NCBI GenBank assembly: GCA_030583865.1
Contig: CP129479.1
Span: forward strand, 1,004,744 to 1,068,743
Length of the DNA stretch: 64,000 nucleotides
Origin: Thermodesulfobacteriota bacterium
Lineage (GTDB): Bacteria; Desulfobacterota; GWC2-55-46
Direction of reading: 5' to 3'
How positions within the stretch are numbered: the stretch's first letter is position 1; the number at the start of each line of letters is the position of its first letter. The position numbers and the translations under genes are program-made. The notes under the pieces are model-generated. The model was not told where the DNA came from, did no database searches, and saw nothing but the letters and a program-made list of their open reading frames with translations. This document shows, piece after piece, positions 25,872-44,925 of the stretch.

Positions 25872-26342
25872 GAGGGCAGCCACTGACTCCGGAGGACAAC
25901 GTTGCCTTCGCTAAACCGGCCTAGAATCTGTCATCCTGAGGGAGTGAAACGACCGACAATTTTTTGCAGGACAGCAAAAATTGAATGCCGAGCCTCTTGG
26001 AGGCAGCCCGAAGGGGTCGAGCCCCAGGACGGGATGAGATAAGAATCTCGTATTCAAGCCCCGTCGCAAAAGGCCCGCCCTTTAACGCGCTGCCGCGCTC
26101 TTTCCGGGCATAAGGCTTCTCTCCCTCTCCGCCTCCTTCCTCCGGGCTCGGCCCTTGAGTCGTTCGGCCCCTTCGGGGCCTCGCTCCTGCTACCCCGTCT
26201 CGCCCGCCCCTCCCCATCCCTATGTTAGCTCCGCCTTATGTCCCCCCGGGTGGTTTGAATACAAAAAAGCTTGTTGGGTCGCGAAGCAGACCCAACAAGA
26301 AAAGGCGCAAAGCTTTGTTGGGTTACGCTTGGGTTTTTCCAT

Positions 26343-26773: not shown

Positions 26774-27184
26774 ATGAAGATACTGTTCTGTCATGACGGC
26801 TCTGAAAACGCACAAAAGGCGCTGGACAAGACCCTGGATCTTTTCAAGCTCGCAAAGCCGGAAGTAGTACTCTTGATGGTCGTCGAGGGGGCCCGCGACG
26901 CAAGCATGGAAAACGAGGAGATATTCGAGAAGCAGCGCTCGGAGGGGCATGATTTCCTCATGAAGACCGCAAGGTACATCACGGGCAAGGGCTTCGACGT
27001 GGACGTCATACTCGCGAACGGCGACGCCAGGAAGATGATAATCGAGACTTCAAGGAACAAGCAGCCCGACATCATGGTCGTCTCCAAGCGCGGCGGCGGC
27101 ATCCTGGACAACATGGTGCTCGGGAGCGTGAGCGCGTATGTGGTCCGCCACGCCAAGTGCCCGGTCCTTGTGCTGCATACATAG
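26774..27184 (+). CDS. Universal stress protein (UspA), first copy
   Basis: A cytosolic single-domain Usp of 136 residues: 'MKILFCHDGSENAQKALDKTLDLF' at the N-terminus and 'DIMVVSKRGGGILDNMVLGSVSAYVVRHAKCPVLVLHT' (in pieces) at the C-terminus. The ATP-binding signature G-x2-G-x9-G-S is present except that the first Gly is Ser. ATG 26774 follows GGAGGAGAT. It is 39 bases upstream of narK and nearly identical in layout to the cassette at 28949, so it probably belongs to nitrate-linked stress signalling. Confidence 0.93.
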   Translation: MKILFCHDGSENAQKALDKTLDLFKLAKPEVVLLMVVEGARDASMENEEIFEKQRSEGHDFLMKTARYITGKGFDVDVILANGDARKMIIETSRNKQPDIMVVSKRGGGILDNMVLGSVSAYVVRHAKCPVLVLHT

Positions 27185-27223
27185 GCCCCATACCAAGAAG
27201 AGAAAAGCAGGAGGTAGCGGATA

Positions 27224-28714
27224 ATGCAAGTATCAGATCTCTTCAGATACAGGAACCCTGAAATAAAGGCGCTCCATCTCACCTGGATAGCGTTCTTCAT
27301 CTCGTTCTTCGTATGGTTCAACATGGCGCCCCTGGCCACCACCATGATGAAGAGCCTCGGGTGGCTCACCATGAAGGACGTGAAGATCCTTGCCATCTGC
27401 AACGTGGCCCTGACCATCCCGGCCCGCCTCATTACCGGCATGGCCCTCGACAAGTTCGGGCCGAGGAGGGTCTTCTCGGTCCTCATGGTCATAATGGCAG
27501 TACCGGCCCTCGTTTTCGCATTCGGCAACTCCTTCGCGCAGCTCCTGGCCTCGAGGCTGGTCCTGAGCTCCATAGGCGCGAGCTTCGTCGTGGGCATCCA
27601 CATGACGGCCCTCTGGTTCAAGCCAAAGGACATAGGCTTTGCAGAGGGCTTTTACGCGGGCTGGGGCAACTTCGGCTCCGCGGCCGCGGCAATGACGCTG
27701 CCCTACATAGCCCTCACCATGTTCGGAGGCGAGAGCGGCTGGAGATATGCCCTTGCCTTGAGCGCGATAATAATGGCCGCCTACGGCGTATTCTACTGGT
27801 TCGCGATAACCGACGGTCCGGCGGGCAGCATACACAGGAAGCCCAGGAAGGTCGCGGCCCTCGAGGTAAGCACCTGGGGCGACATGATAAAGCTCCTCAT
27901 CTGCACCGTTCCCATGGTCGGCATACTCGTGATACTGGTCTGGAGGATACAGAGTTCCGGGTACATGGGCGCGGGCTGGGCGTACGTCTGCTATCTTGTC
28001 ATAGCCGCAATCGTCATATGGCAGCTCGTACAGGTGCTGCTCGTGAACATCCCGATACTCAAGAAGGGAGTGCCAGAGGACGACAAGTACCCCTTCAACA
28101 GCGTCCTGGCCCTCAACACGACCTACTTCGCGAACTTCGGAGCGGAGCTCGCGGTCGTCTCCATGCTCCCGGCCTTCTTCGAGCAGACATGGACCCTTTC
28201 CGCCACCCAGGCCGGCCTCATCGCATCGTCCTTCGCCTTCGTGAACCTCTTCGCGAGGCCGCTCGGCGGCCTCATATCCGACAGGTTCACGAGCAGGAAA
28301 GTTGTCATGATGGTCTACATGTTCGGCATAGCCTGCGGCTTCTTCCTCATGGGGCTCATGGGCTCGACCTGGCCGCTCGTGCTGGCGATAATCGTGACTA
28401 TCTGCTGCTCGGTATTCGTGCAGGGCGCAGAGGGCGCGACCTTCGGCATAATACCCTCGATAAAGAGGCGCCTGACCGGGCAGATATCCGGCATGGCGGG
28501 GGCCTACGGCAACGTCGGCGCGGTCTTCTACCTCTTCGTACTCACCTTCGTTACCTCGAAGCAGTTCTTCTTCATCATATCAGCCGGCGCTTTCATAAGC
28601 TTCATCTTCTGCCTCGTATTCCTCAAGGAGCCGGAGGGCGGGTACTCTGAAGAGTATCACCTATCCTCTGTAGACAGGGAGATAGAGAAGGAGATGGGCG
28701 GCCTCGGCCACTAA
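27224..28714 (+). CDS. narK: NarK-type nitrate/nitrite transporter, first copy
   Basis: An MFS permease of the NNP family in the inner membrane, with 12 predicted TM helices in 496 residues. 'WFNMAPLATT' in TM1 and the nitrate signature 'GWGNFGSAAAAMTLP' (147-160, TM5) are present, with a second glycine-rich motif 'GMAGAYGNVGAVFYL' in TM11. 'LDKFGPRR' is the MFS motif between TM2 and TM3. It moves nitrate in and/or nitrite out; the mode cannot be told from sequence. It is coupled with the uspA upstream. Confidence 0.95.
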   Translation: MQVSDLFRYRNPEIKALHLTWIAFFISFFVWFNMAPLATTMMKSLGWLTMKDVKILAICNVALTIPARLITGMALDKFGPRRVFSVLMVIMAVPALVFAFGNSFAQLLASRLVLSSIGASFVVGIHMTALWFKPKDIGFAEGFYAGWGNFGSAAAAMTLPYIALTMFGGESGWRYALALSAIIMAAYGVFYWFAITDGPAGSIHRKPRKVAALEVSTWGDMIKLLICTVPMVGILVILVWRIQSSGYMGAGWAYVCYLVIAAIVIWQLVQVLLVNIPILKKGVPEDDKYPFNSVLALNTTYFANFGAELAVVSMLPAFFEQTWTLSATQAGLIASSFAFVNLFARPLGGLISDRFTSRKVVMMVYMFGIACGFFLMGLMGSTWPLVLAIIVTICCSVFVQGAEGATFGIIPSIKRRLTGQISGMAGAYGNVGAVFYLFVLTFVTSKQFFFIISAGAFISFIFCLVFLKEPEGGYSEEYHLSSVDREIEKEMGGLGH

Positions 28715-28732
28715 GGCCCTGTTCCGGAACGG

Positions 28733-28759
28733 CGCGCGGGAGCTATCGGCTCCCGCGCG
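28733..28759 (+). other. GC hairpin after first narK
   Basis: CGCGCGGGAG / CTCCCGCGCG, 10 bp with a 7-base loop, 18 bases after the narK stop. It lacks a T-run, so at most it is a weak terminator or mRNA-stabilising hairpin between the two uspA-narK cassettes. Confidence 0.5.
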
Positions 28760-28948
28760 TCTTGCCGGTCCTGCCGCGGACGGTTTTTTTCTGGCGGAGC
28801 GGAACGGGATTCGGCATAATCCTGCAGCGGTCACCGGGCATCGGCCCCGGCCTGCGGACCCACCACGGGCCGGCTCTTTGCAGGCCCGGCAGTCCATCGG
28901 GCCCCGGATGCCTGGTTGCGCCGCCAATACGGACCGGGGAGGGATGAT

Positions 28949-29359
28949 ATGAAGATAATGTTCTGCCATGACGGCTCCGAGAGGTCTAATGCCGCCCTTG
29001 AAAAGGCCCTCGGCCTCTTCAAGCACCTGAGCCCCGAGGTCTTTCTCATAACGGTCGTCGAGGAGCCGCTGGACGCGACCAGCCACGACGAGGAGAGCTT
29101 CGAGAAATGGCGGGCCACCCGCGAGGAGGACCTCCAGGAGGCGGCCAACCGGGTCGTCGAGCACGGGCTCGACGTGGACGCGATACTTGCCATAGGCGAC
29201 CCGAGGAAGATGATAATCGAGGCCGCGGAGAACAAGAACCCCGATATCCTGGTCGTGGCGCGGCGGGGCGCGGGCCTTCTGGAAAGCATGGTCCTCGGTA
29301 GCGTGAGCTCGTTTCTAGTCCGTAACGCCGAGTGCCCGGTGCTCGTCGTCCATTCATGA
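28949..29359 (+). CDS. Universal stress protein (UspA), second copy
   Basis: It has 136 residues from ATG 28949 (GGGGAGGG upstream); the frame is open to 28916 without support. 'MKIMFCHDGSERSNAALEKALGLFK' and 'ARRGAGLLESMVLGSVSSFLVRNAECPVLVVHS' (in pieces) parallel the first copy almost residue for residue. The ATP signature has Ala in place of the first Gly. It precedes the second narK by 76 bases and looks like a duplicated uspA-narK cassette. Confidence 0.93.
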   Translation: MKIMFCHDGSERSNAALEKALGLFKHLSPEVFLITVVEEPLDATSHDEESFEKWRATREEDLQEAANRVVEHGLDVDAILAIGDPRKMIIEAAENKNPDILVVARRGAGLLESMVLGSVSSFLVRNAECPVLVVHS

Positions 29360-29435
29360 GGCGCTTCAAGACTGGCCTTCGGTTCAAGGGGCCGCCCCGG
29401 ACGATTACGCGGCGGCCATTACTTTCGAAAAACGC

Positions 29436-30971
29436 ATGGGCTCTAACCATTATAGCCAGATAGGCCTCAGGGACCTTTTCGACCTCAAGCGGGCCGACAC
29501 AGTCATACTCCACAAGACCTGGTTCGCCTTCTTCCTTACCTTCTTCGTCTGGTTCAACATGGCCCCGCTCGCCACCACCATCGCGGCAGCGTCCGGCCTT
29601 ACGATGGACGAATTGAAGCTCCTGGCCGTCTGCAACGTGGCACTTGCGGCCCCGGGCCGCTTCATCATGGCGGGCCTTACCGACAGGTTCGGCCCACGGA
29701 AGACGCTTACTCTCATCATGGTCGCAACCTCTGTGCCCTGCCTCGCGTTCGCCTTTGCCGGCTCGTACGGCCAGATGATCGTCTCAAGGCTCCTCCTCGG
29801 AATGGTGGGCACCGGCCTCATGGCGGGCATACACATGACCTCGCTCTGGTTCAGGCCCAGGGACATAGGGTTCGTGCAGGGCGTCGAGGCGGGCCTCGGG
29901 AACTGGGGCTCGTCCATTGCGGCAATGCTCATGCCGGTCCTGGCCCTTAACGTATTCGGCTCGTGGAGGCTCGCCATAGCCATGAGCGGGGTCCTGATGC
30001 TCGTCTACGGGGCCTATTTCTGGTACACCGTATCGGACGGCCCGGAGCGCGCGTTCCGCCGGAGCCCGGGGAAGGGCTCGGCCATAGAGGTCTCCTCCTG
30101 GGGCGACCTCGTTGCGGCGCTCATCTGGACCGCGCCGATAACGGGCGTCCTCGCACTCCTGGTCTGGAGAGCGAGGGGCATGGGCTACATCGGAGGGGAG
30201 ATTGCCGCGCTCGCGTACGCCGTCATAGCCGCCGCGGTCCTTTACCAGACGGGCCGCGTCGTCCGCTTGAACCTCCCCATGCTGAAAAAAGGGGTCCCCG
30301 ACAGGGACCGATACCGGTTCACCGACGTCGGCGCCCTGTGCCTCTGTTACGTCGCCACCTTCGGCGCGGAGGTCGCGGTAATATCGATGCTGCCGGTTTT
30401 CCTGCAGAACGGGTTCAGCCTCACGCCCCAGCTCGCGGGCCTTCTGGGCGCGGCCTTCGCGTTCCTCAATATCTTTTCGCGGGCGCTCGGGGGTTATATC
30501 ACCGGCAGGATGCCCGCGAAAAGGGGCACCATGCTGGTGTACCTGGCCGGGGTGGCGGTAAGCTTCAGCCTCATGGGGCTCATAACTCCTGAGTGGCCCG
30601 TACCGTCCGTGGTGCTCGTAATTCTCCTGTGCGCGCTTTTCGTCACGGGTGGGTGCGGCATAACGTACGCCATAGTGCCGCTCATAAAGAGGCGCATGAC
30701 TGGCAGGATATCTGGCTACGTCGGGGCATACGGGAACGTGGGCGCCGTCGTCTTCCTGGTCGCCTACACGTTCGTGGGAGAGAGCCAGTTTTTTTATCTG
30801 ATAGGCGCGGCGGCCCTGGCAGCCTTCCTTTTCTGCCTCTTTTTCATGAAGGAGCCGGCCGGGGCCTTCTCAAAGGAGTACCAGCTTTACTGCGTGGGCA
30901 AGCGCCCGGCGGAGGGTGGGCGCGGCAGGGCTTCCGGGGCGCGGGCGCCTTTTGCGGACCGGGGCGCCTGA
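29436..30971 (+). CDS. narK: NarK-type nitrate/nitrite transporter, second copy
   Basis: A 12-TM MFS protein of 511 residues and a paralog of the protein at 27224 ('WFAFFLTFFVWFNMAPLATT', 'TDRFGPRK', 'GLGNWGSSIAAMLMP', 'GYVGAYGNVGAVVFLV'). TM5 has GLGNWGSS in place of GWGNFGSA, so the two may differ in specificity or direction. The C-terminus has an extra basic tail. ATG 29436 has only a weak ribosome binding site, so the start is less certain. The 250 bases after it hold a promoter. Confidence 0.93.
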   Translation: MGSNHYSQIGLRDLFDLKRADTVILHKTWFAFFLTFFVWFNMAPLATTIAAASGLTMDELKLLAVCNVALAAPGRFIMAGLTDRFGPRKTLTLIMVATSVPCLAFAFAGSYGQMIVSRLLLGMVGTGLMAGIHMTSLWFRPRDIGFVQGVEAGLGNWGSSIAAMLMPVLALNVFGSWRLAIAMSGVLMLVYGAYFWYTVSDGPERAFRRSPGKGSAIEVSSWGDLVAALIWTAPITGVLALLVWRARGMGYIGGEIAALAYAVIAAAVLYQTGRVVRLNLPMLKKGVPDRDRYRFTDVGALCLCYVATFGAEVAVISMLPVFLQNGFSLTPQLAGLLGAAFAFLNIFSRALGGYITGRMPAKRGTMLVYLAGVAVSFSLMGLITPEWPVPSVVLVILLCALFVTGGCGITYAIVPLIKRRMTGRISGYVGAYGNVGAVVFLVAYTFVGESQFFYLIGAAALAAFLFCLFFMKEPAGAFSKEYQLYCVGKRPAEGGRGRASGARAPFADRGA

Positions 30972-31007: not shown

Positions 31008-31036
31008 TGGACATTGCTGAAATTATGTACTATAAT
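31008..31036 (+). promoter_or_regulatory. Predicted sigma-70 promoter upstream of the nar region
   Basis: TGGACA (31008-31013), exact 17-base spacer, TATAAT (31031-31036). It is the only good promoter seen between the second narK and the cytochrome c/narGHJI genes, so it could drive the small gene at 31225 and read on into the nar operon. Confidence 0.65.
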
Positions 31037-31224
31037 CCGTCGCATACGAATAAATTCAAAAAGAGCGAAAAAACTCTGGACAGGTGTGGCGCATTCTGGT
31101 ATTTTACGCCTACTCAGCGTCATGCAAACACGAAGGTTCTAATGTCCAAGGGCTCGAAGGTCTTTTGTATAGTCCGCGTGCGTCCTGACTGGGAGGACTC
31201 TGAACGGCTTTGGAGGACTCAGGT

Positions 31225-31674
31225 TTGAGTCACAGGATCAGAAAAGAGCTTAAACGCCTCTGCCAGTGTCTCTTCTACGCTGCCGCCGTCAGGGTGCGCC
31301 CCGCTGCGTCGATGAATTTCATTTCAGGCAGAATGGCCGCCGACATATCGTCCGGGCTCCCCGCTGAAAGCCGCGCCGCCAGGCCTCGAGAGGAGAGGAA
31401 GGGCAGGCGCGCTCTTGAAATCGTGGGCATGATCATCGGCTCGCTCCCCATATATCCGGAAGGTTCCAATACGGTAAACGCAATCGAAGAGTTCGTCTCC
31501 AAGCTCAGGGAAGAGGCCGTCGATTTCTGCCAGAGGGAGGATGCCGTCGAGAAGCCGGCCGTCCCCTGCCTGGGCAGGAAATCGAAGATGTCCAGGAGCG
31601 CCGGCCTCGAAGACCTGAAAGTCATGCTCAATCTCGCCAGAGGCAACCTCGAAGAAGCAATCCCCGCCTCTTAA
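31225..31674 (+). CDS. Hypothetical protein upstream of cytochrome c/narGHJI
   Basis: Not recognised. GGAGGA at 31212-31217 and 7 bases of spacing point to TTG 31225, giving 149 residues; the frame is open to 31210. A 28-codon ORF (31142-31228) ends in TGA that overlaps this TTG, which suggests coupled translation. The N-terminal half is Arg/Ala-rich. The middle 'RALEIVGMIIGSLPIYPEGSNTVNAIEEFVSKLREEAVDFC' and the end 'AGLEDLKVMLNLARGNLEEAIPAS' look helical. No membrane segment is clear. It could be a small regulator or adaptor for the nar genes, but this is only context. Confidence 0.45.
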   Translation: MSHRIRKELKRLCQCLFYAAAVRVRPAASMNFISGRMAADISSGLPAESRAARPREERKGRRALEIVGMIIGSLPIYPEGSNTVNAIEEFVSKLREEAVDFCQREDAVEKPAVPCLGRKSKMSRSAGLEDLKVMLNLARGNLEEAIPAS

Positions 31675-31864: not shown

Positions 31865-32434
31865 ATGGATTTGAGGAGTTGTAAAAAAATCTTGGTAAAA
31901 GGACTGCAGCTCGGGTTTGCGCTGAGTCTCGTAGCAGGTGTTGCCCCGATGAAGGCGGCCGCTTTCGAGAACGCCGAGCCGGGCGATGCCGCCCTCGGTA
32001 AGATGTACTTTACCGGCGAGAAGCAGTTCGCGAGCGGCGCGCCGGCCTGCATATCCTGCCACAACGCCGGAGTGGGCTCTCTCGGCGGAGGCGTCCTTGG
32101 TCCGGACCTGACCAACGTGTACGCCGACGATTCGAAGAACCCCCTTCTGAACGCGGCATGGATAAACGCCGGGTCCCCGGTAATGGCGCCGGTCTTCAGC
32201 AAGAGGAACGTCACTGACGAAGAGGTGTCCCACTTGAGGGCGTTCTTCGCCGAGCAGGCCAATGTCGAGGCAAAACCGGCCCCGACCGGAATCTTCACCA
32301 TCGTAGGCATAGGCGGTTTCGTAGGAATACTGATTATCTTCAACATAATCTGGAGCGGCAGGTACAGGAACAGGAATAGAGGCACCGCCCACGATGCCCT
32401 GTGGAGAAACTACGGCGGAAAAGGAGGGAGGTAA
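31865..32434 (+). CDS. Membrane-anchored monohaem cytochrome c of the nar operon
   Basis: It has 189 residues. A signal peptide (residues ~1-33, 'GLQLGFALSLVAGVAPMKAAA') is followed by one haem c site 'CISCH' (62-66) and a likely axial Met in 'GSPVMAPVF' (M107). A C-terminal TM helix 'IFTIVGIGGFVGILIIFNIIW' then anchors it, followed by a short basic tail. AAAGGAGGTG precedes ATG 31865. It is 4 bases from narG, so it is co-translated. This is like NarC in Thermus nar operons (which is dihaem there), and it may link NarGHI to a c-type or quinol pathway. Confidence 0.9.
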   Translation: MDLRSCKKILVKGLQLGFALSLVAGVAPMKAAAFENAEPGDAALGKMYFTGEKQFASGAPACISCHNAGVGSLGGGVLGPDLTNVYADDSKNPLLNAAWINAGSPVMAPVFSKRNVTDEEVSHLRAFFAEQANVEAKPAPTGIFTIVGIGGFVGILIIFNIIWSGRYRNRNRGTAHDALWRNYGGKGGR

Positions 32435-32438
32435 TTAG

Positions 32439-35400
32439 ATGGCTACCTGGATTCAAGATGAGATAAACCCCGGTAAAAGGGGTTGGGAAGAATATTACAG
32501 GAACCGCTGGCAGTATGACAAGACCGTGAGGTCCACCCACGGCAACAACTGCACCGGCGGCTGCTCCTGGATGGTCTACGTGAAGGACGGCATCATAACC
32601 TGGGAGCTGCAGGCCGTAGACTACCCGAAGCTCGACCAGTCCATACCGCCTTACGAGCCCAGGGGCTGCCAGAGGGGCATATCCGCCTCCTGGTACGTCT
32701 ACAGCCCGGTCAGGATCAAGTACCCCTACTGCCGCGGCGTGCTCCTCGACGCCTGGAAGGAAGCGAGGGCGAAGCACTCCGACCCGGTTGACGCCTGGAG
32801 GTCCATAGTTGAGAACGCAGAGCTCCACAAGAAGCTCAAGTGGTCCAGGGGCAAGGGCGGGTTCCGCAGGTTCGACTGGGACACCGCAGCCGAGATAATC
32901 GCCTCGGCCCACATCTACACCATAAAGAAGTACGGCCCGGACAGGATCATCGCCTTCTCCCCCATCCCGGCCATGTCGCAGATAAGCTACGCTGCCGGCG
33001 CCCGCTACAACCAGCTCATAGGCGGCGTGCACCTTAGCTTCTACGACTACTACACCGACCTCCCGAACGCCGAGCCCGAGGTATGGGGCGAGCAGACCGA
33101 CTCATGCGAGAGCGCGGACTGGTACAACACCGGCTACTGCGTCATAACCGGCGCCAACCCGAACATGACCAGGACCGCGGACTGCCACTTCGTCTCCGAG
33201 CTCCGGATGGGCGGCGCCAAGCTCGTAGTGTGCGCTCCAGACTACTCTCAGGTCACGAAGTACGCCGACAACTGGGTGCCCCTCAAGCCCGGCTCGGACT
33301 CCAACTTCTGGATGGGCATAAAGCACGTCATCCTTAAGGAGTTCTTCGTAGACAGGAAGGTGCCGTACTTCGAGGCCTACACCAGGCAGTTCACCGACCT
33401 CCCGATGCTCGTGAAGATCGAGAAGGGCAAGGACGGCTGGGAGCAGGGCAGGTTCCTCAGGGCGTGCGACCTCTCCGAATACGACGGCGAGGACAACCCC
33501 GAGTGGAAGTTCACCATGTGGGACGAGACCACCAACAAGGCGGTCGTCGTGAACGGCTCTATGGGCTACAGGTGGCCCAAGGACCACCACAGCCACGGCA
33601 AGTGGAACCTCCTCCTCCGTGAAGCCAAGACCCAGAAGAACATAAACCCCTCGCTCACGGTCCTCGACCACAAGGAGGACGCGATAGAGGTCAACTTCTA
33701 CGAGGTCGACAAGCCCGAGAAGTACAAGAGGCAGGTGCCCGTAAGGTACGTGCAGACCAAGGAAGGCAAGGTCGCCGTCACCACGGTATTCGACCTGAAG
33801 GTCGCCCAGTGCGGCGTCGCCCGCAAGGGCCTTTCCGGCGACTACTGCAGGAACTACGACGACGAGAGGGGCTTCTCGCCGGCATGGCAGGAGAGGTACA
33901 CCGGCATTGGCCGCGACACCATCATCCAGATAGCCAGGGAGTTCGCCTCCAACGCGGAAGTGACCAAGGGCCGCTCGATGATAATCACCGGGTCGAGCTA
34001 CAACCACTGGTACCACTCGAACCTCCTCTACAGGACCGCGATGGACGCGCTCATGCTCTGCGGCTGCGTGGGAAGGAACGGCGGAGGCCTCCAGCACTAC
34101 GTCGGCCAGGAGAAGCTCGCCCCATTCGACTCGTGGGGCCAGATAGCCCACTCGCTCGACTGGTACAGGCCGCCGAGGCTCATGAACAACCCGAGCTTCT
34201 GGTACATCAACACGACCATGTTCAAGTTCGACGGCGCGATAGCGGACTACCACAACGTCCCTGACAAGAACGCCCTCGAGTTCCAGCACACGGTCGACTA
34301 CAACGTCAGGGCCGTAAGGCTCGGATGGATGCCCTGCTTCCCGCAGTTCAACAAGAGCTCCATAGCGATCTGCGAGGAGGCCCAGAGGGCGGGCGCGAAG
34401 TCCGACGCCGAGATAATCGACTACGTGGTGAAGCAGCTGAAGAGCGGCTCGCTCGAGTTCGCGATGCAGGACCCGGACGCGCCGGAGAACTGGCCGAGGG
34501 TATGGTTCATATGGAGGGCGAACGCGCTCGGCTCGTCCGCCAGGGGCCAGGAGTACTTCTTCAAGTACGTCCTCGGCACCCATAACAACCTCATCGCCGA
34601 AGAGGTCGCCAAGCCCCACGTGAAGGAGATGAAGTACAGGGAGTCCCCGCTCGGGAAGCTCGACCTCCTCGTCGACCTCAACATGCGTATGAACACCACT
34701 CCGACGTACTGCGACATAGTGCTCCCGACGGCGCACTGGTACGAGAAGGAGGACATAAACACCACGGAGCTCCACTCCTTCGTCCACCCGATGGGCGCGG
34801 CGGTCCCGCCGAACTGGGAGGCAAAGAGCGACTGGGAGGCCTTCAAGTTCCTCTCCAAGAAGTTCTCCGGGATAGCGAAGAAGCACTTCCAGAAGCCGGT
34901 CAAGGACATCATCATGTCCCCGCTCATGCACGACACTCCGGGCGAGATAGCGCAGCCCGCGCTTGGCGGCGTGAAGGACTGGAAGAAGGGCGAGTGCGAG
35001 ATAATCCCTGGCAAGACCACCCAGAGCTTCACGGTCGTCGAGAGGGACTACGCCAACGTGGACAAGATGTACACGGCCGTAGGACCCCTCCAGAAGACCA
35101 AGTACGGCTTCCACGGCGTCATGCTCGATGGCAAGGAGCTCTACGAGGACTACCTCAACCAGGAGCACATCGAGAAGAAGGACGTGAACGGCCAGAAGCT
35201 CATCTCCCTCGAGACGGCAAAGGACGCCGCGAACTTCGTCCTCGCCTTCTCAGGCACCACGAACGGAGAGGTCTGCTTCAGGCAGTGGTGGGAGGAAGAG
35301 CACCACACCGGCCTCACCAAGGACGACTACCTCGAGGCTCGGAAACAGGCCAGGGCGGTCCATCCTGGAATCAAGTACCTCATACCGGACGAGAGGTGCC

Positions 35401-36167
35401 ACGGTCTCGCGCACGAGATGGCCAGCGGAAACAGGAACGTCTCGATGACCTACGACGACATAGTGGCGCAGCCCAAGAGGTGGCTCACCAGCCCGCTCTG
35501 GACCGGCGACACGAGGCGCGGAAGGGCATACGGCACCTGGACCATCCAGACCGAGCAGCTCGTGCCCTGGAGGACGCTCACGGGACGTCAGCACTTCTAC
35601 CTCGACCACCCGGTCTACCTGGACTTCGGCGAGGCCCTTTCAACCGCCAAGTACAGGCTGAACCCGGCCAAGATGAACGAGGTCGAGAAGTCCGACAGGA
35701 CCGACGCGCTCCACCTGAACTACATCACCCCGCACAGCAAGTGGGCCATCCATTCGACCCACTATGACAACCTGAGGATGCTCACCCTGTCCAGGGGCGG
35801 AAACTCCATCTGGCTGAACGACAGGGACGCCGAGAGCGTGGGCATCAAGGACAACGACTGGGTCGAGGCCTACAACGACAACGGAGTCTATGTAAGCCGC
35901 GCGGTCGTCAGCGCCAGGATCCCCTCGGGCAGCTGCTTCGCCTACCATTCACAGGAAAGGACCGTGAACATACCCAAGGCGGAGCAGAGGAACAAGATCA
36001 GGGGCGGATTCCACAACTCGCTCACCAGGCAGAGGCTCAAGCCGCAGCTCCTGACCGGCGGTTACGGGCAGTTCTCCTACGGCTTCAACGCGTGGGGCCC
36101 GATCGTCGTCATCAGGGACACGACGGTCTTGGTGAGAAAAATGAGAAACCAGGAGGTGAAGTGGTAA
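32439..36167 (+). CDS. narG: Respiratory nitrate reductase alpha subunit
   Basis: The molybdenum (bis-MGD) catalytic subunit that reduces nitrate to nitrite. It has 1242 residues. The N-terminal FS0 [4Fe-4S] site uses the His/Cys pattern H34, C38, C42, C77 ('HGNNCTGGC', 'PRGCQRG'). The Mo-ligand Asp lies in 'FYDYYTDLPNAEPEVWGEQTD' (in pieces; D207). There is no Tat signal, only the vestigial 'NPGKRGWEEYYRNRWQ', so it is expected on the cytoplasmic side as in E. coli. NxrA of nitrite oxidisers can look alike, but the narGHJI order and the full NarI favour nitrate reduction. It abuts narH (1-base gap). Confidence 0.96.
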   Translation: MATWIQDEINPGKRGWEEYYRNRWQYDKTVRSTHGNNCTGGCSWMVYVKDGIITWELQAVDYPKLDQSIPPYEPRGCQRGISASWYVYSPVRIKYPYCRGVLLDAWKEARAKHSDPVDAWRSIVENAELHKKLKWSRGKGGFRRFDWDTAAEIIASAHIYTIKKYGPDRIIAFSPIPAMSQISYAAGARYNQLIGGVHLSFYDYYTDLPNAEPEVWGEQTDSCESADWYNTGYCVITGANPNMTRTADCHFVSELRMGGAKLVVCAPDYSQVTKYADNWVPLKPGSDSNFWMGIKHVILKEFFVDRKVPYFEAYTRQFTDLPMLVKIEKGKDGWEQGRFLRACDLSEYDGEDNPEWKFTMWDETTNKAVVVNGSMGYRWPKDHHSHGKWNLLLREAKTQKNINPSLTVLDHKEDAIEVNFYEVDKPEKYKRQVPVRYVQTKEGKVAVTTVFDLKVAQCGVARKGLSGDYCRNYDDERGFSPAWQERYTGIGRDTIIQIAREFASNAEVTKGRSMIITGSSYNHWYHSNLLYRTAMDALMLCGCVGRNGGGLQHYVGQEKLAPFDSWGQIAHSLDWYRPPRLMNNPSFWYINTTMFKFDGAIADYHNVPDKNALEFQHTVDYNVRAVRLGWMPCFPQFNKSSIAICEEAQRAGAKSDAEIIDYVVKQLKSGSLEFAMQDPDAPENWPRVWFIWRANALGSSARGQEYFFKYVLGTHNNLIAEEVAKPHVKEMKYRESPLGKLDLLVDLNMRMNTTPTYCDIVLPTAHWYEKEDINTTELHSFVHPMGAAVPPNWEAKSDWEAFKFLSKKFSGIAKKHFQKPVKDIIMSPLMHDTPGEIAQPALGGVKDWKKGECEIIPGKTTQSFTVVERDYANVDKMYTAVGPLQKTKYGFHGVMLDGKELYEDYLNQEHIEKKDVNGQKLISLETAKDAANFVLAFSGTTNGEVCFRQWWEEEHHTGLTKDDYLEARKQARAVHPGIKYLIPDERCHGLAHEMASGNRNVSMTYDDIVAQPKRWLTSPLWTGDTRRGRAYGTWTIQTEQLVPWRTLTGRQHFYLDHPVYLDFGEALSTAKYRLNPAKMNEVEKSDRTDALHLNYITPHSKWAIHSTHYDNLRMLTLSRGGNSIWLNDRDAESVGIKDNDWVEAYNDNGVYVSRAVVSARIPSGSCFAYHSQERTVNIPKAEQRNKIRGGFHNSLTRQRLKPQLLTGGYGQFSYGFNAWGPIVVIRDTTVLVRKMRNQEVKW

Positions 36168-36168
36168 T

Positions 36169-37689
36169 ATGGATCTCAGAGCGCAGCTTTCAATGAGCTT
36201 TCATATGGATAAATGTATCGGCTGCCACACCTGCAGCGTGTCCTGCAAGAACGTCTGGACATCGCGCAGGGGCGCCGAGTACATGTGGTGGAACAACGTC
36301 GAGACCAAGCCCGGCGCCGGCTACCCCCTCACCTGGGAAGACCAGGAGAGGTACAGGGGCGGCTGGGAGGTCTCGGGCGGCAACTTGAGGCTCAAGCTCC
36401 TCAAGGGCCCCGGCAAGATAAGGACGCTGGCGAACATATTCTTCCAGCCCAACCTGCCGACGATAGACGACTACTACGAGCCGTTCACCTATGACTATCA
36501 GAACCTCTTCAACGCGCCGGCCGGCGACGACCAGCCCGTTGCGAGGCCGAAGTCGCTTATCACCGGCGACTTCATGGAAAAGATAATCATGGGCCCGAAC
36601 TGGGACGACGACATGGGCGGCTCGCCGCTCTACGCGGCGAACGACCCGAACCTCAAGGGGCTCTCGGAGTCGCAGAAGGAGATGCTCACCAAGTTCCACA
36701 AGCTCTTCTTCTTCTATCTCCCGAGGATATGCAACCACTGCCTCAACCCCGCTTGCGTGGCCTCCTGCCCGTCGGGCGCCATATACAAGAGGGGCGAGGA
36801 CGGCATAGTCCTTATCGACCAGGACACCTGCCGCGCCTGGAGGTTCTGCGTGAGCGCCTGCCCGTACAAGAAGCCCTACTACAACTGGGCGAACGGGAAG
36901 AGCGAGAAGTGTATCTTCTGCTATCCGAGGACCGAGACCGGCCAGCCGAACGCCTGCGCGCACGCGTGCACCGGCAGGATCAGGTTCGTAGGCGTGCTCT
37001 TCTATGACGCCGACAGGATAGAGGAAGTCGCGAAGACCCCGGACGAGAGGCTCGTGGACGCGATGAGGGACATAATCCTCGACCCGAACGACCCGAGGGT
37101 CATTGAAGAGGCCAGGAAGCAGGGGATCGACGAGAACTGGCTGGTTGCGGCCCAGAACTCGCCGGCCTACAACCTCTTCAAGAAGTGGAGGATAGCGCTC
37201 CCGAACCATCCGGAGTTCAGGACGGTGCCGATGAACTTCTATCTGCCGCCGCTCTCCCCGGTCCTCCACAACGCGAAGGCCGACAACGGCGGCCTCTTCG
37301 ACGCTGAATCCGTCGAGTTCTTCTATTCGATGGACAAGATGAGGGTGCCGGTAAGGTACCTCGCGAACCTCCTTTCCGCCGGCAACGAGCAGCTGGTCAT
37401 CGAGTCGCTGAAGAAGCAGATGGCCGTAAGGCTCTGGGTGCGCCAGCAGAGGGTCGGAGACGTGGGCGACAGCGCAGCGAAGGCAGCCCTCTCATCCGTG
37501 GGCCTCACGCCCGAGGACGCGTTCGAGATCTATAAGCTCACCTCGCTTGGCACCTTCCAGGAGAGGTTCGTGATACCCGAGACACACCGCGAGACGCAGT
37601 CCACGGTCGACCCCAGGACCATGTACGAGAAGAGGGGCACGGTCGGCTTCGGCTCCAAGAAGCAGGAACTCGTATCGAGGCAGTGGTAA
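36169..37689 (+). CDS. narH: Respiratory nitrate reductase beta subunit
   Basis: NarH carries four iron-sulfur clusters between NarI and NarG. It has 506 residues. Cluster ligands are 'CIGCHTCSVSC' (C16, C19, C22, C26), 'CNHCLNPACVASCP', 'CRAWRFCVSACPYKK' (the Trp in place of Cys marks the [3Fe-4S] site, as in E. coli) and 'CIFCYPR...CAHACTGR'. It abuts narG, and narJ follows after 8 bases. Confidence 0.96.
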   Translation: MDLRAQLSMSFHMDKCIGCHTCSVSCKNVWTSRRGAEYMWWNNVETKPGAGYPLTWEDQERYRGGWEVSGGNLRLKLLKGPGKIRTLANIFFQPNLPTIDDYYEPFTYDYQNLFNAPAGDDQPVARPKSLITGDFMEKIIMGPNWDDDMGGSPLYAANDPNLKGLSESQKEMLTKFHKLFFFYLPRICNHCLNPACVASCPSGAIYKRGEDGIVLIDQDTCRAWRFCVSACPYKKPYYNWANGKSEKCIFCYPRTETGQPNACAHACTGRIRFVGVLFYDADRIEEVAKTPDERLVDAMRDIILDPNDPRVIEEARKQGIDENWLVAAQNSPAYNLFKKWRIALPNHPEFRTVPMNFYLPPLSPVLHNAKADNGGLFDAESVEFFYSMDKMRVPVRYLANLLSAGNEQLVIESLKKQMAVRLWVRQQRVGDVGDSAAKAALSSVGLTPEDAFEIYKLTSLGTFQERFVIPETHRETQSTVDPRTMYEKRGTVGFGSKKQELVSRQW

Positions 37690-37697
37690 AGGAAACG

Positions 37698-38243
37698 ATG
37701 GTAAAGGCGAAGCACCTGTATACGCATCTGGCCGGGCTGCTTGAGTATCCCGGTGAGGATATAAAGCTCAGGACCGAGGAGTGCATAAACGCGCTCGAAG
37801 GCCTTGAGCAGTATCCTCCCGAGGCGCTCGAGGAGATGAAGAAGTTCCAGAAGGACCTGGAGCACATCCCCCTGGACGACCTCCGGGGGGTGTACTCCTA
37901 CACCTTCGAGCTCACGAGCGACTTCACGCTGGACATGGGATACCACATCTATGACGGCTTCAGGAGGTCAAGCAGCCTTGCCACCATCAAGAGCATGTAC
38001 GCGCAGAACGGCTTCCCTCTCGACGATTTTTCGAAAGGCGAACTCCCCGACCACCTGCCGGTCATCCTCTACTTCCTCGGCTTCACGGAGAACGAGGATC
38101 TCGTAAAGGACTTCCGGGAGAGTTTCTTCATAAGGGCGATGGAGAAGCTGCAGAAGAACTTCGAGAAGAACAGGAAGAATCTCTACTGGCACCTCATCAA
38201 TGCCGTCTACAGAATTATAGATAAAGACGTAAAAGGAGGCTAA
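37698..38243 (+). CDS. narJ: Nitrate reductase molybdenum cofactor assembly chaperone
   Basis: NarJ holds NarGH until the cofactor is inserted and is not part of the final enzyme. It has 181 residues from ATG 37698 (AAAGG upstream; the frame is also open to a GTG at 37683 inside narH). 'FTFELTSDFTLDMGYHIYDG' (seen as 'YTFELTSDF') and 'ELPDHLPVILYFLG' match the TorD/NarJ family. It is in the canonical order between narH and narI. Confidence 0.92.
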   Translation: MVKAKHLYTHLAGLLEYPGEDIKLRTEECINALEGLEQYPPEALEEMKKFQKDLEHIPLDDLRGVYSYTFELTSDFTLDMGYHIYDGFRRSSSLATIKSMYAQNGFPLDDFSKGELPDHLPVILYFLGFTENEDLVKDFRESFFIRAMEKLQKNFEKNRKNLYWHLINAVYRIIDKDVKGG

Positions 38244-38245
38244 GA

Positions 38246-38944
38246 ATGGACAACGTCCTATTCGGCGTGATGCCGTACATCCTGTTGATGACGGCTATCG
38301 TCGGCGCAATCTGGAGATACAGAACCAACAAGTACTCGTGGTCTTCGCAGTCGTCGCAGTTCCTTGAGAACAAGACCCTCTTTTTCGGGTCGTTCCCCTG
38401 GCACTACGGCATAATAGTGGTGCTCCTCGGCCACATAATCGGGTTCTTCATCCCGAAGAGCATCCTGCTCTGGAACGCGGTGCCCTTGAGGCTCTACATA
38501 CTCGAGCTCACGGCGCTCGCATTCGGCCTTCTCGCCCTTTTCGGCCTCCTCGCCCTCATCTACAGGAGGCTTACGAACAGCAGGGTAAAGGCCGTGACCT
38601 CCGGGTGGGACGTGCTGGTGCTCATCATCCTTCTCATCCAGGTCCTCACCGGCGTTGGCACCGCCATCTTCTACAGGTGGGGCTCCAACTGGTTCGCTTC
38701 ATCGGCCGTGCCGTATCTCTGGTCGATAATCAAGCTGCAGCCCAATGTTGACTACATAGCGGGCCTGCCGCTCATCACCAAGGCGCACATATTCAACGCG
38801 CTTATCTTCTTCGCGCTGATTCCGTTCTCAAGGCTCGCGCACTTTGTGGTCATCAACCCCTACAAGTACCTCGTAAGGCCTTACCAGGTCGTAAGGTGGT
38901 ACAGGAGGGGCGGTCAGACAGTGAACGTGGTGCAGTACAAGTAA
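38246..38944 (+). CDS. narI: Respiratory nitrate reductase gamma subunit (dihaem b)
   Basis: A membrane subunit that oxidises quinol and passes electrons to NarH. It has 232 residues and five TM helices. Haem b ligands are H53 ('PWHYG'), H63 ('LLGHIIGF'), H181 ('KAHIFN') and H199 ('RLAHFV'), with spacings matching E. coli H56, H66, H187, H205. It is followed by a strong terminator. Confidence 0.95.
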   Translation: MDNVLFGVMPYILLMTAIVGAIWRYRTNKYSWSSQSSQFLENKTLFFGSFPWHYGIIVVLLGHIIGFFIPKSILLWNAVPLRLYILELTALAFGLLALFGLLALIYRRLTNSRVKAVTSGWDVLVLIILLIQVLTGVGTAIFYRWGSNWFASSAVPYLWSIIKLQPNVDYIAGLPLITKAHIFNALIFFALIPFSRLAHFVVINPYKYLVRPYQVVRWYRRGGQTVNVVQYK

Positions 38945-39066: not shown

Positions 39067-40707
39067 ATGTCGAAAATAACAAGATGGGAGCCGGAAAACG
39101 AACAATTCTGGCGAGAAACAGGCAGCAAGATTGGATGGACCACCTGCGGCATTACCACCTTCACCCTGGTATTTTCATTCGCTACCTGGTTCGTCATGAG
39201 CGCCGTTGTCGTCAGGCTTCCGAACATCGGCTTCAAGTTCACTCCCATGGAGCTCTTCTGGCTCGCGGCCATACCGGGTCTCGCCTCCGGTATCCTCAGG
39301 TTGATACACTCCTACTTCATCCCCATCCTGGGGACGAGGCCGGTCGTAAGCATAGCGACCATCATCAAGCTCATACCCATGGTCTGGCTCGGTTTCGCAG
39401 TGCAGGATACAAGCACGCCATGGAGCACCTTCATGATAATCGGCTTCCTGAGCGGCATGGGCGGCGGGGACTTCTCCTCCTACATGCCTTCAACAAGCAT
39501 ATTCTTCCCGAAGAGGCTCCAGGGCCTGTCAATGGGCATACAGGCCGGCATCGGAAACTTCGGCGTTAGTGTCGTCCAGTTCGTGACACCCTGGATAGTG
39601 GGCTTCTCCCTTGTCGGGGGCGCTTACGGCGCACCCCAGCTCTTCACGAAAATTGACATTATAAAGGACGTGGCGGTCACCAAGAACGAGTCAGGGGTTG
39701 TCACGGACATAGTCTACAAGAACCCGGCATTTGCCAGCGCGGTTCTCGTCACCAAGGACGATAACGGCCTGGTGAGCGACGTCTCAGTACAGGAGACAGC
39801 CGTAACCAAGAACATGCAGCTCGATATCAAGAGGAACGACGCGGGCGTCGTGACCGACCTGACCCTCAAGAGGGTAGTAAAGAAGGACATGTGGGTGCAG
39901 AACGCCGCGTTCTGGTACATACCCTTCCTCATCCTGTCCTTCATCCTGAGCGTCATATTCCTCAAGAGCATCGACCCGGCGGCGCTCGGTTTCAAGGGCG
40001 GCAACTTCAAAAAGCAGTTCGAAATACTCAGCACCAAGAACAGGGCGCTCACGCACACCTGGAACTGCACCATAACCTATATCGCGTCATTCGGTTCGTT
40101 CTCCGGTTATGCGGCAGCTTTTCCATTGATGATAAGGGTCATCTACGGCGGCTTTGACGGAGCGCCGGACCCGCTGAAGTTCGCGTTCCTCGGCCCGCTC
40201 ATCGGTGGCCTTTCACGCACCTTTACCGGTTGGATGTTCGACAAGATCGGCGGAAGCAAGGGCATGCACTGGTGCCTGATCGGCCAGATACTGGGCTGCC
40301 TTGCCCTCATATTCGGCGGCTATCTTACCCCGACCGGGCTTGAGAAGTTCCCGGGCTTCGTCTATATAATGCTCTGGATATTCCTCATGACCGGCATAAA
40401 CAACGCCGCTACTTTCAGGCAGTACCCGATAGTCTTCGCGTACTCGCCCGCAAAGGGCGCGCAGATGCTCGGCTGGACCGGCGCGTGGGCGGCCTTCGGC
40501 CCGTTCGTCTTCGCCTCGCTCGTCGGCATGTCCATAACCAAGACCGGCAGCGCCATCACCTTCTTCGCGGGTGCGGCCATCTTCTACCTCTACGCCTTCA
40601 TCATCAACTGGTATTACTATACCAGGAAGGGCGCGGAAAGGTTTGACTGGGGCAACAAGGGTACCTGGTGGGACACCGCCAAGAGCACCTGGACCGGCGG
40701 GCAATAG
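39067..40707 (+). CDS. narK: NarK-like MFS transporter with a large repeat-bearing insertion
   Basis: An NNP-family permease of 546 residues with MFS TM helices, including 'GMGGGDFSSYMPSTSIFFP' and 'GIQAGIGNFGVSVVQFVTPW' (TM5 nitrate signature). Between TM6 and TM7 (about 190-277) is an 85-residue insertion with three imperfect ~25-residue repeats at 204-218, 228-242 and 254-268 (consensus V-T-K-x-x-x-G-V-V-T-D-x). The insertion is absent from the two other NarK proteins here. In the MFS fold the TM6-TM7 loop is cytoplasmic. GGAGAATCTGC precedes the ATG. It is monocistronic behind the nar terminator. Confidence 0.88.
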   Translation: MSKITRWEPENEQFWRETGSKIGWTTCGITTFTLVFSFATWFVMSAVVVRLPNIGFKFTPMELFWLAAIPGLASGILRLIHSYFIPILGTRPVVSIATIIKLIPMVWLGFAVQDTSTPWSTFMIIGFLSGMGGGDFSSYMPSTSIFFPKRLQGLSMGIQAGIGNFGVSVVQFVTPWIVGFSLVGGAYGAPQLFTKIDIIKDVAVTKNESGVVTDIVYKNPAFASAVLVTKDDNGLVSDVSVQETAVTKNMQLDIKRNDAGVVTDLTLKRVVKKDMWVQNAAFWYIPFLILSFILSVIFLKSIDPAALGFKGGNFKKQFEILSTKNRALTHTWNCTITYIASFGSFSGYAAAFPLMIRVIYGGFDGAPDPLKFAFLGPLIGGLSRTFTGWMFDKIGGSKGMHWCLIGQILGCLALIFGGYLTPTGLEKFPGFVYIMLWIFLMTGINNAATFRQYPIVFAYSPAKGAQMLGWTGAWAAFGPFVFASLVGMSITKTGSAITFFAGAAIFYLYAFIINWYYYTRKGAERFDWGNKGTWWDTAKSTWTGGQ

Positions 40708-41883: not shown

Positions 41884-42390
41884 ATGGAGATCACCACCCC
41901 GGAACAGGCTAATGCAGAAATCAAGAAGTGGCTTGAGGAGAACCATCACGACGTAAAGGAAATAAAAGACGAGAACGCCGTATTCCATTTCGAGATCGAC
42001 TACCCGCTCGGCTCCATGAAGAAGCAGAGGGTGCTCCAGCCCAAGGAGTTCCCCGGCCTTATCGTGGTGCTGAACGGGGTCAGCATAGCGAACGAGCACA
42101 TGGAGAAGCTCAAGGGCATGAACCCCAACGACAGGGAAGCCTTCTACGGGGAGATAAGGAAGGACCTCCTCTTCCTCAAGAACAGCTACGACCTCAACAT
42201 AGACGAGGCCGGGGTGGCGAAGCAGGTGCAGTTCTCGTATGAGTTCTACTACGACGCGCTCAAGAAGACCAAGCTCTATGACGCGCTCCTCCTTAACCAC
42301 AGGACGCTTCTTTACATCATAACGAAGTTCAACGACGAGTTCGGAATGCCCGTAATGCCCTCGCAGAAAGGCGATGTAGGTCACGCCTGA
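41884..42390 (+). CDS. DUF2299-like conserved hypothetical protein
   Basis: It has 168 residues and is soluble. 'IKKWLEENHHDVKEIKDENAVFHFEIDYP' and 'VLQPKEFPGLIVVLNGVSIANEHMEKLKGMN' (in pieces) and a helical C-terminal half ('FYGEIRKDLLFLKNSYDLNIDEAG') are seen. It is reminiscent of the DUF2299 family known from archaea and anaerobes, as far as I can recall. ATG 41884 is preceded by GAGGAGAGTTGG. It lies 35 bases ahead of the hemerythrin gene and is probably co-transcribed with it. The function is unknown. Confidence 0.7.
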   Translation: MEITTPEQANAEIKKWLEENHHDVKEIKDENAVFHFEIDYPLGSMKKQRVLQPKEFPGLIVVLNGVSIANEHMEKLKGMNPNDREAFYGEIRKDLLFLKNSYDLNIDEAGVAKQVQFSYEFYYDALKKTKLYDALLLNHRTLLYIITKFNDEFGMPVMPSQKGDVGHA

Positions 42391-43839: not shown

Positions 43840-44667
43840 TTATTCCTTGTATACGGCCTTAAGCAGGCTCTTCTGGGCCAGGTAGGAGACTATCCCGAGA
43901 TAGATGAGCACTATCGGGAGTATCAGGAAGAGGTTGGGGATGGTGGTGTTCTCTTCCAGCTCGTTGCCCGTTGACTCGCTCACCACGATGCCGTAGGTGT
44001 TCCTCAGGGTCTTGTTCCCGGTTATCCTGTTGCCGTTCGAGGAAAAGACCATTATGCCGTCCCACGTGTTCAGGTTGACGGCGTTTCCGGTTATCTCGTT
44101 CCCGTTCGAATAGCTTATGAAAAAGCCCTTGTCCCTGTTGAGTGTAGAGCTGTTCGACTCAACCCTGTTCCCGTCCGATTTTTCCATGTAGAGGCCGTAC
44201 TGTGCGTTCGAGCTGGACTCGTTCCAGCTTATTACCGAGCGGCTCGTGCCGGAGAGCATTATCCCGGTCCCGTTCCTGGTGAAGGCGTTCCCGGTCACGG
44301 TCACATCGGAGGAGCCGGAAACGAGTATGCCGGCGACATCAGAGCCCGTGCCCGAGACCCCGGCGATTGTCACATCCGAGGTGCCGGATACCTTTATGGC
44401 AGGCAGGTCCGGCCTCTCGGCCTGGATAAGGACGGCTGACGGGCCGTTTTTGGAGCTCAAGGCCAGGGGTTTTTCAATGACGACGTTCTCGATGTAGACG
44501 CCGTCGTCGACCACCACGGCGTCGGACGGAGCCGCAGCGTCCACGGCCTCCTGTATCGACCTGTAGTCGCCCGGGACGTGCAGGGTGGCGGCCTGTGTGG
44601 AGACAGGCAGAAGGAGCAGGGTAACCAGAAAGAAAGCGAGGAATGGCTTGGTCATATACCTGGGCAT
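43840..44667 (-). CDS. NosD-like right-handed beta-helix protein with C-terminal TM
   Basis: It has 275 residues from ATG 44667 (44655 is a second option); upstream in-frame sequence has no signal or family support. The N-terminal signal 'FLAFFLVTLLLLPVSTQA' is followed by 'LHVPGDYRSIQEAVDAA' and 'DDGVYIENVVIEKPLAL', the start of a NosD/pectate-lyase-like helix. About seven ~22-residue rungs follow (N-x-I-T-G-N ... type). The end is a TM helix 'LFLILPIVLIYLGIVSYLA' that anchors it outside the membrane. NosD assists nitrous oxide reductase in other bacteria; here no nosZ is seen, so function is open. Confidence 0.82.
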   Translation of the reverse strand: MPRYMTKPFLAFFLVTLLLLPVSTQAATLHVPGDYRSIQEAVDAAAPSDAVVVDDGVYIENVVIEKPLALSSKNGPSAVLIQAERPDLPAIKVSGTSDVTIAGVSGTGSDVAGILVSGSSDVTVTGNAFTRNGTGIMLSGTSRSVISWNESSSNAQYGLYMEKSDGNRVESNSSTLNRDKGFFISYSNGNEITGNAVNLNTWDGIMVFSSNGNRITGNKTLRNTYGIVVSESTGNELEENTTIPNLFLILPIVLIYLGIVSYLAQKSLLKAVYKE

Positions 44668-44883
44668 AAGAAACGACCCGCGCGAACCGGCGCGGCCTGG
44701 TCTGCGCGTATAATAGTTACGATATAGAGTGGAATATATCAGAAACCCTGGGCGAAGTCTAATGATTTGAAAAGGAGACGGGTTCGGATTGGGTGAAACA
44801 GCGGCAAGACCAAAAAAACAAGACGGCGCTGAGAACGCGCGCAGTCCAGACCAGGTCAGCTCGGAACTGATGCTGAATCCAAT

Positions 44884-44925
44884 CAAAAAGAAGGGAGCCG
44901 TGGCCACTGCCACGGCTCCCTTTTT
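44884..44925 (-). terminator. Terminator downstream of tRNA-Ala
   Basis: 12-bp perfect stem GGGAGCCGTGGC / GCCACGGCTCCC with a 4-base loop. On the minus strand it is followed by TTCTTTTT, just past the tRNA 3' end; on the plus strand TTTTT follows, so it may work both ways. Confidence 0.85.

Follow-up and report, generated by a model that had tools for sequence, protein, structure and literature searches.

A universal stress protein gene paired with one clade of NarK-type nitrate transporters in Thermodesulfobacteriota and other bacterial phyla

Two Usp-NarK Modules Upstream of a Nitrate Reductase Operon

The 64,000-nucleotide window analyzed here is part of the complete 2.75-Mb chromosome of a Thermodesulfobacteriota bacterium (genome G000, positions 1004744-1068743). 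Its + strand carries two consecutive modules, each comprising a gene for a universal stress protein (Usp) and a gene for a transporter of the NarK nitrate/nitrite family, followed by a 154-amino-acid (aa) open reading frame (ORF), a small cytochrome c gene, narG, narH, narJ, narI, and a third transporter gene, NarK3. The first module consists of Usp1 (26774..27184, + strand, 136 aa, Pfam Usp match at 1.5e-25) and its partner NarK1 (27224..28714, + strand, 496 aa), and the second one consists of Usp2 (28949..29359, + strand, 136 aa, Pfam Usp match at 4.3e-29) and its partner NarK2 (29436..30971, + strand, 511 aa). Both transporters are NNP/MFS proteins of the clade referred to below as NarK-III, with NarK1 representing type A and NarK2 representing type B. 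Within the modules, the Usp and NarK genes are on the same strand and are separated by 39 and 76 bases, respectively.

Usp1 and Usp2 score 90.8 and 102.3 bits against the Pfam Usp domain (PF00582, cut-off 24), and the proteobacterial partner Usps described below score 56.8-68.2 bits. Against the NarK family profile TIGR00886, NarK1 and NarK2 give strong matches of 304 and 248.4 bits (E values of 1.5e-90 and 1.2e-73), although both are below the curated cut-off of 311.7. An earlier sequence-only reading of this region described two consecutive Usp-NarK modules (26774-28714 and 28949-30971), each with a 136-aa Usp, that parallel each other. The coordinates and family matches bear this out: the modules are collinear, with 56% identity between the Usps (136 residues, gapless), 48% identity between the NarKs (across 494 residues), and only 64-70% identity at the DNA level. 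The same reading pointed to a change at the same position of the nucleotide-binding motif in both Usps, and the first Gly of the G-x2-G-x9-G-S motif is indeed replaced by Ser104 in Usp1 and by Ala104 in Usp2, with the remainder of the motif intact. However, this position varies through the family (Ala in 14, Ser in 7, Gly in 4, and Thr in 1 of the 26 members), so the change is not special to these two proteins.

The NarK-III Clade

NarK-III is a separate clade (18 rows, FastTree local support of 100) that stands beside the NarK1-type clade, which includes the N-terminal halves of fused NarK proteins, and the NarK2/E. coli-type clade, which includes the C-terminal halves and NarK3 of the window. 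The latter two names were assigned from the fused-gene halves and the enterobacterial-like rows, according to the usage in the portion of PMC5217062 that deals with them. In profile comparisons, NarK-III is nearer to the NarK1-type (hhalign E value of 4.5e-35) than to the NarK2-type (1.2e-16) transporters. Although it shares with both of them the same operons, the conserved substrate arginines, and, probably, the NNP family (TIGR00886), it remains a clade of its own, and the assignment of NarK1 and NarK2 to the classical NarK1-type (H+/nitrate symporter) group was rejected, as they fall outside it. Residues Arg68 and Arg345, invariant in all 28 NarK-III sequences, were matched by motif and spacing to the E. 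coli-type arginines and are the counterparts of Arg89 and Arg305 of E. coli NarK, which, as stated in the relevant section of PMC4432589, bind nitrate. From the family membership and these conserved arginines, we infer that nitrate is the NarK-III substrate.

Distribution of the Usp-NarK-III Pair

The pairing of Usp with NarK-III is real, wide, and kept across phyla. Among 59 relatives, including the genome of the window, all 19 genomes with NarK-III carry the same clade of Usps, versus only 1 of the 40 others, and a Usp is encoded directly upstream of 25 of the 29 NarK-III copies (the broken NarK1 and the broken Usp2 of genome G001 were each counted as one copy). In the best 80 NarK loci of named genomes, a Usp gene is located just upstream of NarK in 59 and is missing in 19; the other two (L077 and L107), in which the contig starts just upstream of NarK, were left out, so that Usp is present at 59 of the 78 loci that are informative. 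Two loci, L076 and L120, are counted both in the named set and among the relatives, where they belong to G025 and G046. Pair-bearing named genomes include Marinobacter, Halomonas, Stutzerimonas, Rhodobacterales, and Burkholderiales; the pair was also detected in one metagenome-assembled genome (MAG) of Dehalococcoidia, where it could represent contamination. The 19 loci without Usp come from Bacillales (13), Psychrobacter (4), one Acidobacteriota MAG, and one Nitrospirota MAG. On the NarK tree, the pairing maps to a single clade of 40 thinned rows (36 with Usp, 3 without it, and 1 unknown).

A similar picture was obtained with 398 genomes sampled evenly, by species, from Pseudomonadota, the phylum of a Stutzerimonas genome. 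NarK matches were found in 67 of these genomes and, among the best 30 NarK loci, which were examined, Usp is present at 8 of the 9 NarK-III loci versus none of the 21 loci (L165-L185; 522-555 bits) of a sister NNP clade, the closest outgroup to NarK-III. The sister clade resembles NarK-III in having its own dedicated soluble neighbor but differs in the nature and position of the latter: a protein kinase/PP2C fusion gene, located downstream of the transporter gene in 17 of the 21 loci (probe from L187), rather than a Usp gene located upstream. A dedicated soluble neighbor thus recurs in this transporter group. In the phylum of the window, strong matches to the Usp clade were found in 7 of the 297 sampled genomes (11 at E values of ≤1e-20). 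Its distant carriers G100 and G135 likewise have Usp followed by NarK, and the weak Usp matches inspected in G074 and G310 have no NarK following them. No relative of Usp1 was found in viral contigs.

Across 90 pairs (counting only upstream, same-strand Usps within 1 kb), the median gap between the Usp and NarK profile ends is 49 bases. The NarK-III open frames listed, the largest of them 599 aa, include no Usp-NarK fusion, a search that was not designed to find one. In 18 of 20 genomes, there are as many copies of Usp as of NarK-III, and this holds even in the window's genus, where one Usp copy and one NarK-III copy are separated. The six genomes that carry both modules (G000, G001, G004, G005, G019, and G025) all have type A Usp with type A NarK and type B Usp with type B NarK. 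The Usp and NarK trees broadly agree. The pairwise distances of the two proteins are correlated (r of 0.46 over 37 thinned pairs, with none of the 5000 permutations as high), and even more so in the Proteobacteria subset (20 pairs, r of 0.77, 0 of 5000). Such a correlation indicates a travelling unit, not contact, because shared descent of linked genes alone suffices to produce it. The check proposed with the sequence-only reading, by phylogeny of both families and a neighborhood search, thus revealed neither unrelated trees nor a lack of pairing elsewhere, and its suggestion of a Usp dedicated to each NarK is upheld by a pairing that is kept across phyla, is specific to one NarK clade, and is accompanied by broadly congruent trees. 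Its further proposals, that the Usp may regulate NarK activity or respond to nitrite or NO stress, would make the Usp a candidate regulator or stress sensor.

Usp Follows NarK-III, Not the Nitrate Reductase

In the Pseudomonadota sample, narG was found in 68 of the 398 genomes, 59 of which lack NarK-III. Inspection of 40 of the latter, covering ∼7 kb in both directions from narG (5.7 kb in one direction for L227), detected a Usp of any kind near narG in just one genome, and that match is weak and generic; most of these control loci carry another NarK. In genomes G398, G486, and G522, the Usp-NarK pair is located ∼26, 57, and 95 kb away from narG, and the narG locus itself has no Usp. The Usp therefore goes with NarK-III, not with the reductase, and the idea of a Usp that belongs to nar operons in general was rejected. 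Fisher's exact test for 8 of 9 versus 1 of 40 and versus 0 of 21 gave p values of 1.8e-7 and 1.5e-6, which are indicative only, as the genomes are related. Other NNP transporters are common neighbors (22 neighbor slots among 36 loci, with approximate neighbor calls derived by clustering coding-biased ORFs); at the narG control loci, they are not accompanied by their own Usp.

Two Forms of the Partner Usp

In ATP-binding Usps of the MJ0577 type, the nucleotide motif is G-x2-G-x9-G-(S/T). The window-type partner Usps resemble these proteins in the fold and in most of the nucleotide motif, and their Cys6 is invariant (26 of 26). The second and third Gly residues of the motif are kept in 25 of the 26 sequences, whereas the first one is kept in 4 and replaced in 22. 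The proteobacterial partners differ further: instead of G-x2-G, all 57 have ARHS or a form of it that differs by one or two letters, plus ∼15-18 extra residues before the FGSVS segment. In an alignment of 22 proteobacterial Usps with less than 80% identity, which is shallow, residues 123-141 (numbered as in L088) are the most conserved part of the protein, with an entropy of 0.34, compared to 1.37 for residues 1-104. In the AlphaFold2 (AF2) model of a proteobacterial Usp, residues 109-130, which overlap the conserved segment only in part, have predicted local distance difference test (pLDDT) scores below 50. A conserved yet floppy insert suggests a partner-binding site. Both Usp forms share the GDxRK segment, in which Asp84 and Arg86 are nearly or fully constant (Arg86 is invariant in all 26 window-type relatives). 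Cys6 was considered as a universal sensor and rejected in this capacity, being present in 26 of 26 near rows but replaced by Ala in 65 of 66 far rows.

The AF2 model of Usp1 has a pLDDT of 89.7, and the best 50 matches listed for it among the PDB structures are Usps, with E values down to 9.7e-10. UspA (3s3t), TeaD (3hgm), and MJ0577 (1mjh) are the best of these, with TeaD in second place; TeaD is also the top PDB match of the proteobacterial Usp model. Orthology to TeaD was not borne out by the PDB sequence matches, among which TeaD ranks fifth (profile E value of 2.1e-11), behind 3loq, 2gm3, 1mjh, and 1wjg. Two sister Usps lack the nucleotide motif: the one from G040 (L073:8633-9046) is still paired with NarK-III, and the one from G037 (L049:9473-9898) is unpaired and encoded beside response regulator genes.

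Possible Role of the Partner Usp

Parallels for a Usp that acts on a transporter are available. The TeaD protein of Halomonas elongata, encoded beside the TRAP transporter TeaABC, restrains ectoine uptake with mRNA unchanged, according to the sections of PMC2964678 and PMC9006882 that cover it. The likeness consists of a Usp encoded beside one transporter, whose activity it is reported to modulate there, and, as noted above, of the structural match to both Usp models. The differences are that TeaABC is a TRAP ectoine transporter rather than a member of the NNP family, that teaD is located after the transporter genes but usp before narK, and that the sequence match is weak; moreover, regulation was tested for TeaD, whereas it is a proposal in the present case. 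A second example of a Usp that binds a transporter comes from Mycobacterium tuberculosis, where Rv2623 is a binding partner and a proposed inhibitor of the ABC transporter Rv1747 (PMC5549992, in the part describing this interaction). However, Rv2623 is a tandem-domain Usp that works via an FHA domain and phosphothreonine, whereas Pfam recognizes only the MFS domain in NarK-III. As for control of uptake, PMC3445494 states, in its passages on the subject, that oxygen inhibits nitrate uptake in nitrate-respiring bacteria and that M. tuberculosis NarK2 is inactivated by oxygen, making the transporter the control point, with no tested point mutant escaping this inactivation. Because of these precedents, along with the kinase/PP2C neighbor of the sister clade, the Usp is taken here as a candidate posttranslational regulator of NarK-III.

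We consider it probable, with moderate confidence and by analogy with TeaD and TeaABC, that the Usp is a dedicated partner of NarK-III and modulates its activity posttranslationally, most likely by switching transport off in response to energy or redox. In this scheme, NarK-III would supply the cytoplasmic reductase NarG with nitrate, the product of the adjoining upstream usp gene would be the dedicated soluble regulator of its own NarK-III, and each module would consist of a transporter and its regulator. The Usp would alter the transport activity of NarK-III posttranslationally, as suggested by the TeaD precedent, probably restraining it, and the signal could come from the energy or redox status of the cytoplasm. 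A more detailed version, in which the Usp stops respiratory nitrate uptake upon the return of oxygen or at high cell energy by binding the cytoplasmic face of NarK-III and blocking it, and senses nucleotide or thiol (Cys6) state in Deltaproteobacteria and some other signal, via the rewritten loop, in Proteobacteria, is considered unlikely.

Several observations weigh against a dedicated regulatory partner. In the group of the window, the distance correlation is weak (17 pairs, r of 0.319, with 21 of 5000 permutations as high), and the 59 relatives include four lone NarK-III copies (in four genomes of the window's genus) and six unpaired Usps of the clade. Psychrobacter, Bacillales, the Acidobacteriota and Nitrospirota MAGs, and G422 keep close NarKs without a Usp; the Usp is therefore not essential for transport in general. 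A single ATP-sensing mechanism is doubtful, since the motif is lost in the G040 Usp and the proteobacterial Usps do not have G-x2-G. TeaD is among the top structural matches, but its fold is common to all Usps. Finally, a search for FNR-like sites found none ahead of Usp1, and the 15 detected across the window, compared to 13.9 expected, are at chance level.

Usps are often induced by stress or anaerobiosis. The main rival explanation is shared regulation only, with the Usp being a general protein for anaerobic or low-energy survival that helps whenever the cell turns to nitrate respiration, is encoded beside NarK because it needs the same promoter, and never touches NarK. This is possible but doubtful. 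It is favored by the gene order on an annotated plasmid, where a divergently transcribed CRP/FNR-like regulator gene is followed by usp, NarK-III, a second NarK, and narGHJI. No description of the Usp-NarK pair was found in the open-access literature, to which the search was confined (subscription papers were outside its scope), and the closest item in print, at least in the pertinent parts of PMC6446978, also fits shared regulation: the legend of an Accumulibacter denitrification locus map names uspA, and uspA is found in FNR-associated transcript clusters. Shared regulation only is disfavored by the fact that the Usp tracks NarK-III rather than narG or other NarK types, that it stays with NarK where narG is 26-95 kb away, and that the copy numbers match, as do the A and B types in the two-module genomes.

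According to another explanation, the Usp would act on the making of NarK, as a cotranslational, insertion, or stability factor that changes the amount of the transporter rather than its activity. The placement of the paired Usp gene upstream of NarK, on the same strand and at short gaps (among the pairs counted as defined above), would be in line with such a role, and the corresponding part of PMC2964678 likewise kept translational control as a possibility for TeaD. Nevertheless, the close NarKs of Bacillales and Psychrobacter manage without a Usp. In addition, universal stress proteins are not known to work as insertion factors. This explanation appears decidedly improbable.

Origin of the Type A and Type B Modules

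The sequence-only reading attributed the two modules to a local tandem duplication of a single usp-narK cassette in this lineage. Their head-to-tail layout and collinear identity would fit such an origin, but it is contradicted by the phylogeny and we regard it as highly improbable. In a NarK tree of 71 rows (trees were thinned at 88% identity), NarK1 groups with the transporters of G019 and G025, followed by proteobacterial NarKs, whereas NarK2 falls into a separate type B clade (9 rows, Shimodaira-Hasegawa-like approximate likelihood ratio test [SH-aLRT] support of 100); the type B Usp clade, including Usp2, has support of 100/97. NarK1 is 77% identical to the G019 and G025 NarK, compared to 48% to NarK2; the two NarKs of the window are not mutual closest relatives. 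Forcing NarK1, NarK2, and the G004 copy of NarK2 into one clade costs 204 log-likelihood units and is rejected by the approximately unbiased (AU) test (p-AU of 5.85e-6). In addition, types A and B are located on different contigs in G019 and G025, and the same-genus genomes G002 and G003 have only type B. Judging from these trees, the A/B split is old, and the two types sit side by side in the genus of the window; the presence of two modules in the window thus reflects the juxtaposition of two old NarK-III types, each accompanied by its own Usp. An old duplication may nevertheless lie behind the deep split between A and B.

Members of both clades are also found outside the modules. G000 encodes a third Usp with no NarK beside it (C1:368435, 81% identical to Usp1) and a third NarK with no Usp beside it (C1:532095, 55% identical to NarK1 and 62% identical to NarK2). 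Unpaired Usp1-like and unpaired NarK-III genes are also present in G001, G004, and G005, and both are absent from G002 and G003. In this genus, the loose Usp belongs to type A, whereas the loose NarK falls with type B, and the coming apart of one Usp and one NarK-III copy was probably one event. In G001 (L056:8079-12351), the NarK1 sequence is distributed over several reading frames and the Usp2 frame is broken, which may reflect decay or an assembly error.

Chance adjacency of common gene families, suggested by the abundance of Usp and MFS genes (the genome of the window has 12 Usp-domain matches), can be taken as refuted by the 8 of 9 versus 1 of 40 and 0 of 21 comparison.

Genomic Neighborhood of the Modules

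Downstream of NarK2, a sigma70-like promoter match (31008..31036, + strand, TGGACA-17-TATAAT, 11 of 12 positions) is a match to the consensus only; the region contains 5 such sites, compared to the mean of 2.1 in shuffled sequences. Its position ahead of the cytochrome c-narGHJI genes fits, but does not prove, their transcription separately from the modules. The 154-aa ORF (31210-31674), located between NarK2 and the cytochrome c gene, has no Pfam match and clusters with ORFs that immediately follow NarK at other loci (4 members). The next gene (31865..32434, + strand), which adjoins narG, encodes a small c-type cytochrome-like protein with weak matches to cytochrome c families and a CxxCH motif. 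The reductase genes, all on the + strand, comprise narG for the respiratory nitrate reductase alpha subunit (32439..36167, TIGR01580, 1409.6 bits, above the cut-off), narH for the beta subunit (36169..37689, TIGR01660, 669 bits), narJ for the assembly chaperone (37683..38243, Pfam Nitrate_red_del above the cut-off, TIGR00684 at 42.7 bits, below it), and narI for the gamma subunit (38246..38944, TIGR00351, 144 bits, above the cut-off). They are followed by NarK3 (39067..40707, + strand), an NNP transporter of 546 aa that belongs to the NarK2/E. coli type and is without its own Usp (TIGR00886, 220 bits; NarU model, 209 bits).

A palindrome with 11-bp arms (26270-26299), located 0.5 kb ahead of Usp1, resembles a − strand terminator or a repeat element. 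Beyond the nar cluster, the window encodes a DUF2299 protein (41884-42390) and a hemerythrin-domain protein (PF01814, 42426-43238). A hemerythrin-domain protein also follows NarK in G049 (L048), and similar-looking ORFs flank the G034 module (L068). These genes may belong to the same functional set. A NosD-like right-handed beta-helix protein is encoded on the − strand at 43840-44913, adjoining a tRNA-Ala gene.

Implications

Most members of the Usp family have no assigned functions, and a Usp-NarK-III partnership, if true, would assign a specific partner to one of them. A small soluble protein encoded beside one clade of nitrate transporters across phyla is a concrete candidate for the unexplained oxygen control of nitrate uptake, and the culturable pair-bearing hosts (Marinobacter, Halomonas, and Stutzerimonas) make this control testable. 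The proteobacterial Usps, with their nucleotide loop replaced by a conserved insert, offer a natural experiment on sensing or binding by Usps. If the Usp is indeed a switch of nitrate uptake, dedicated soluble regulators, such as Usp in NarK-III and the kinase/phosphatase in the sister clade, would be a general way of gating NNP nitrate transporters.

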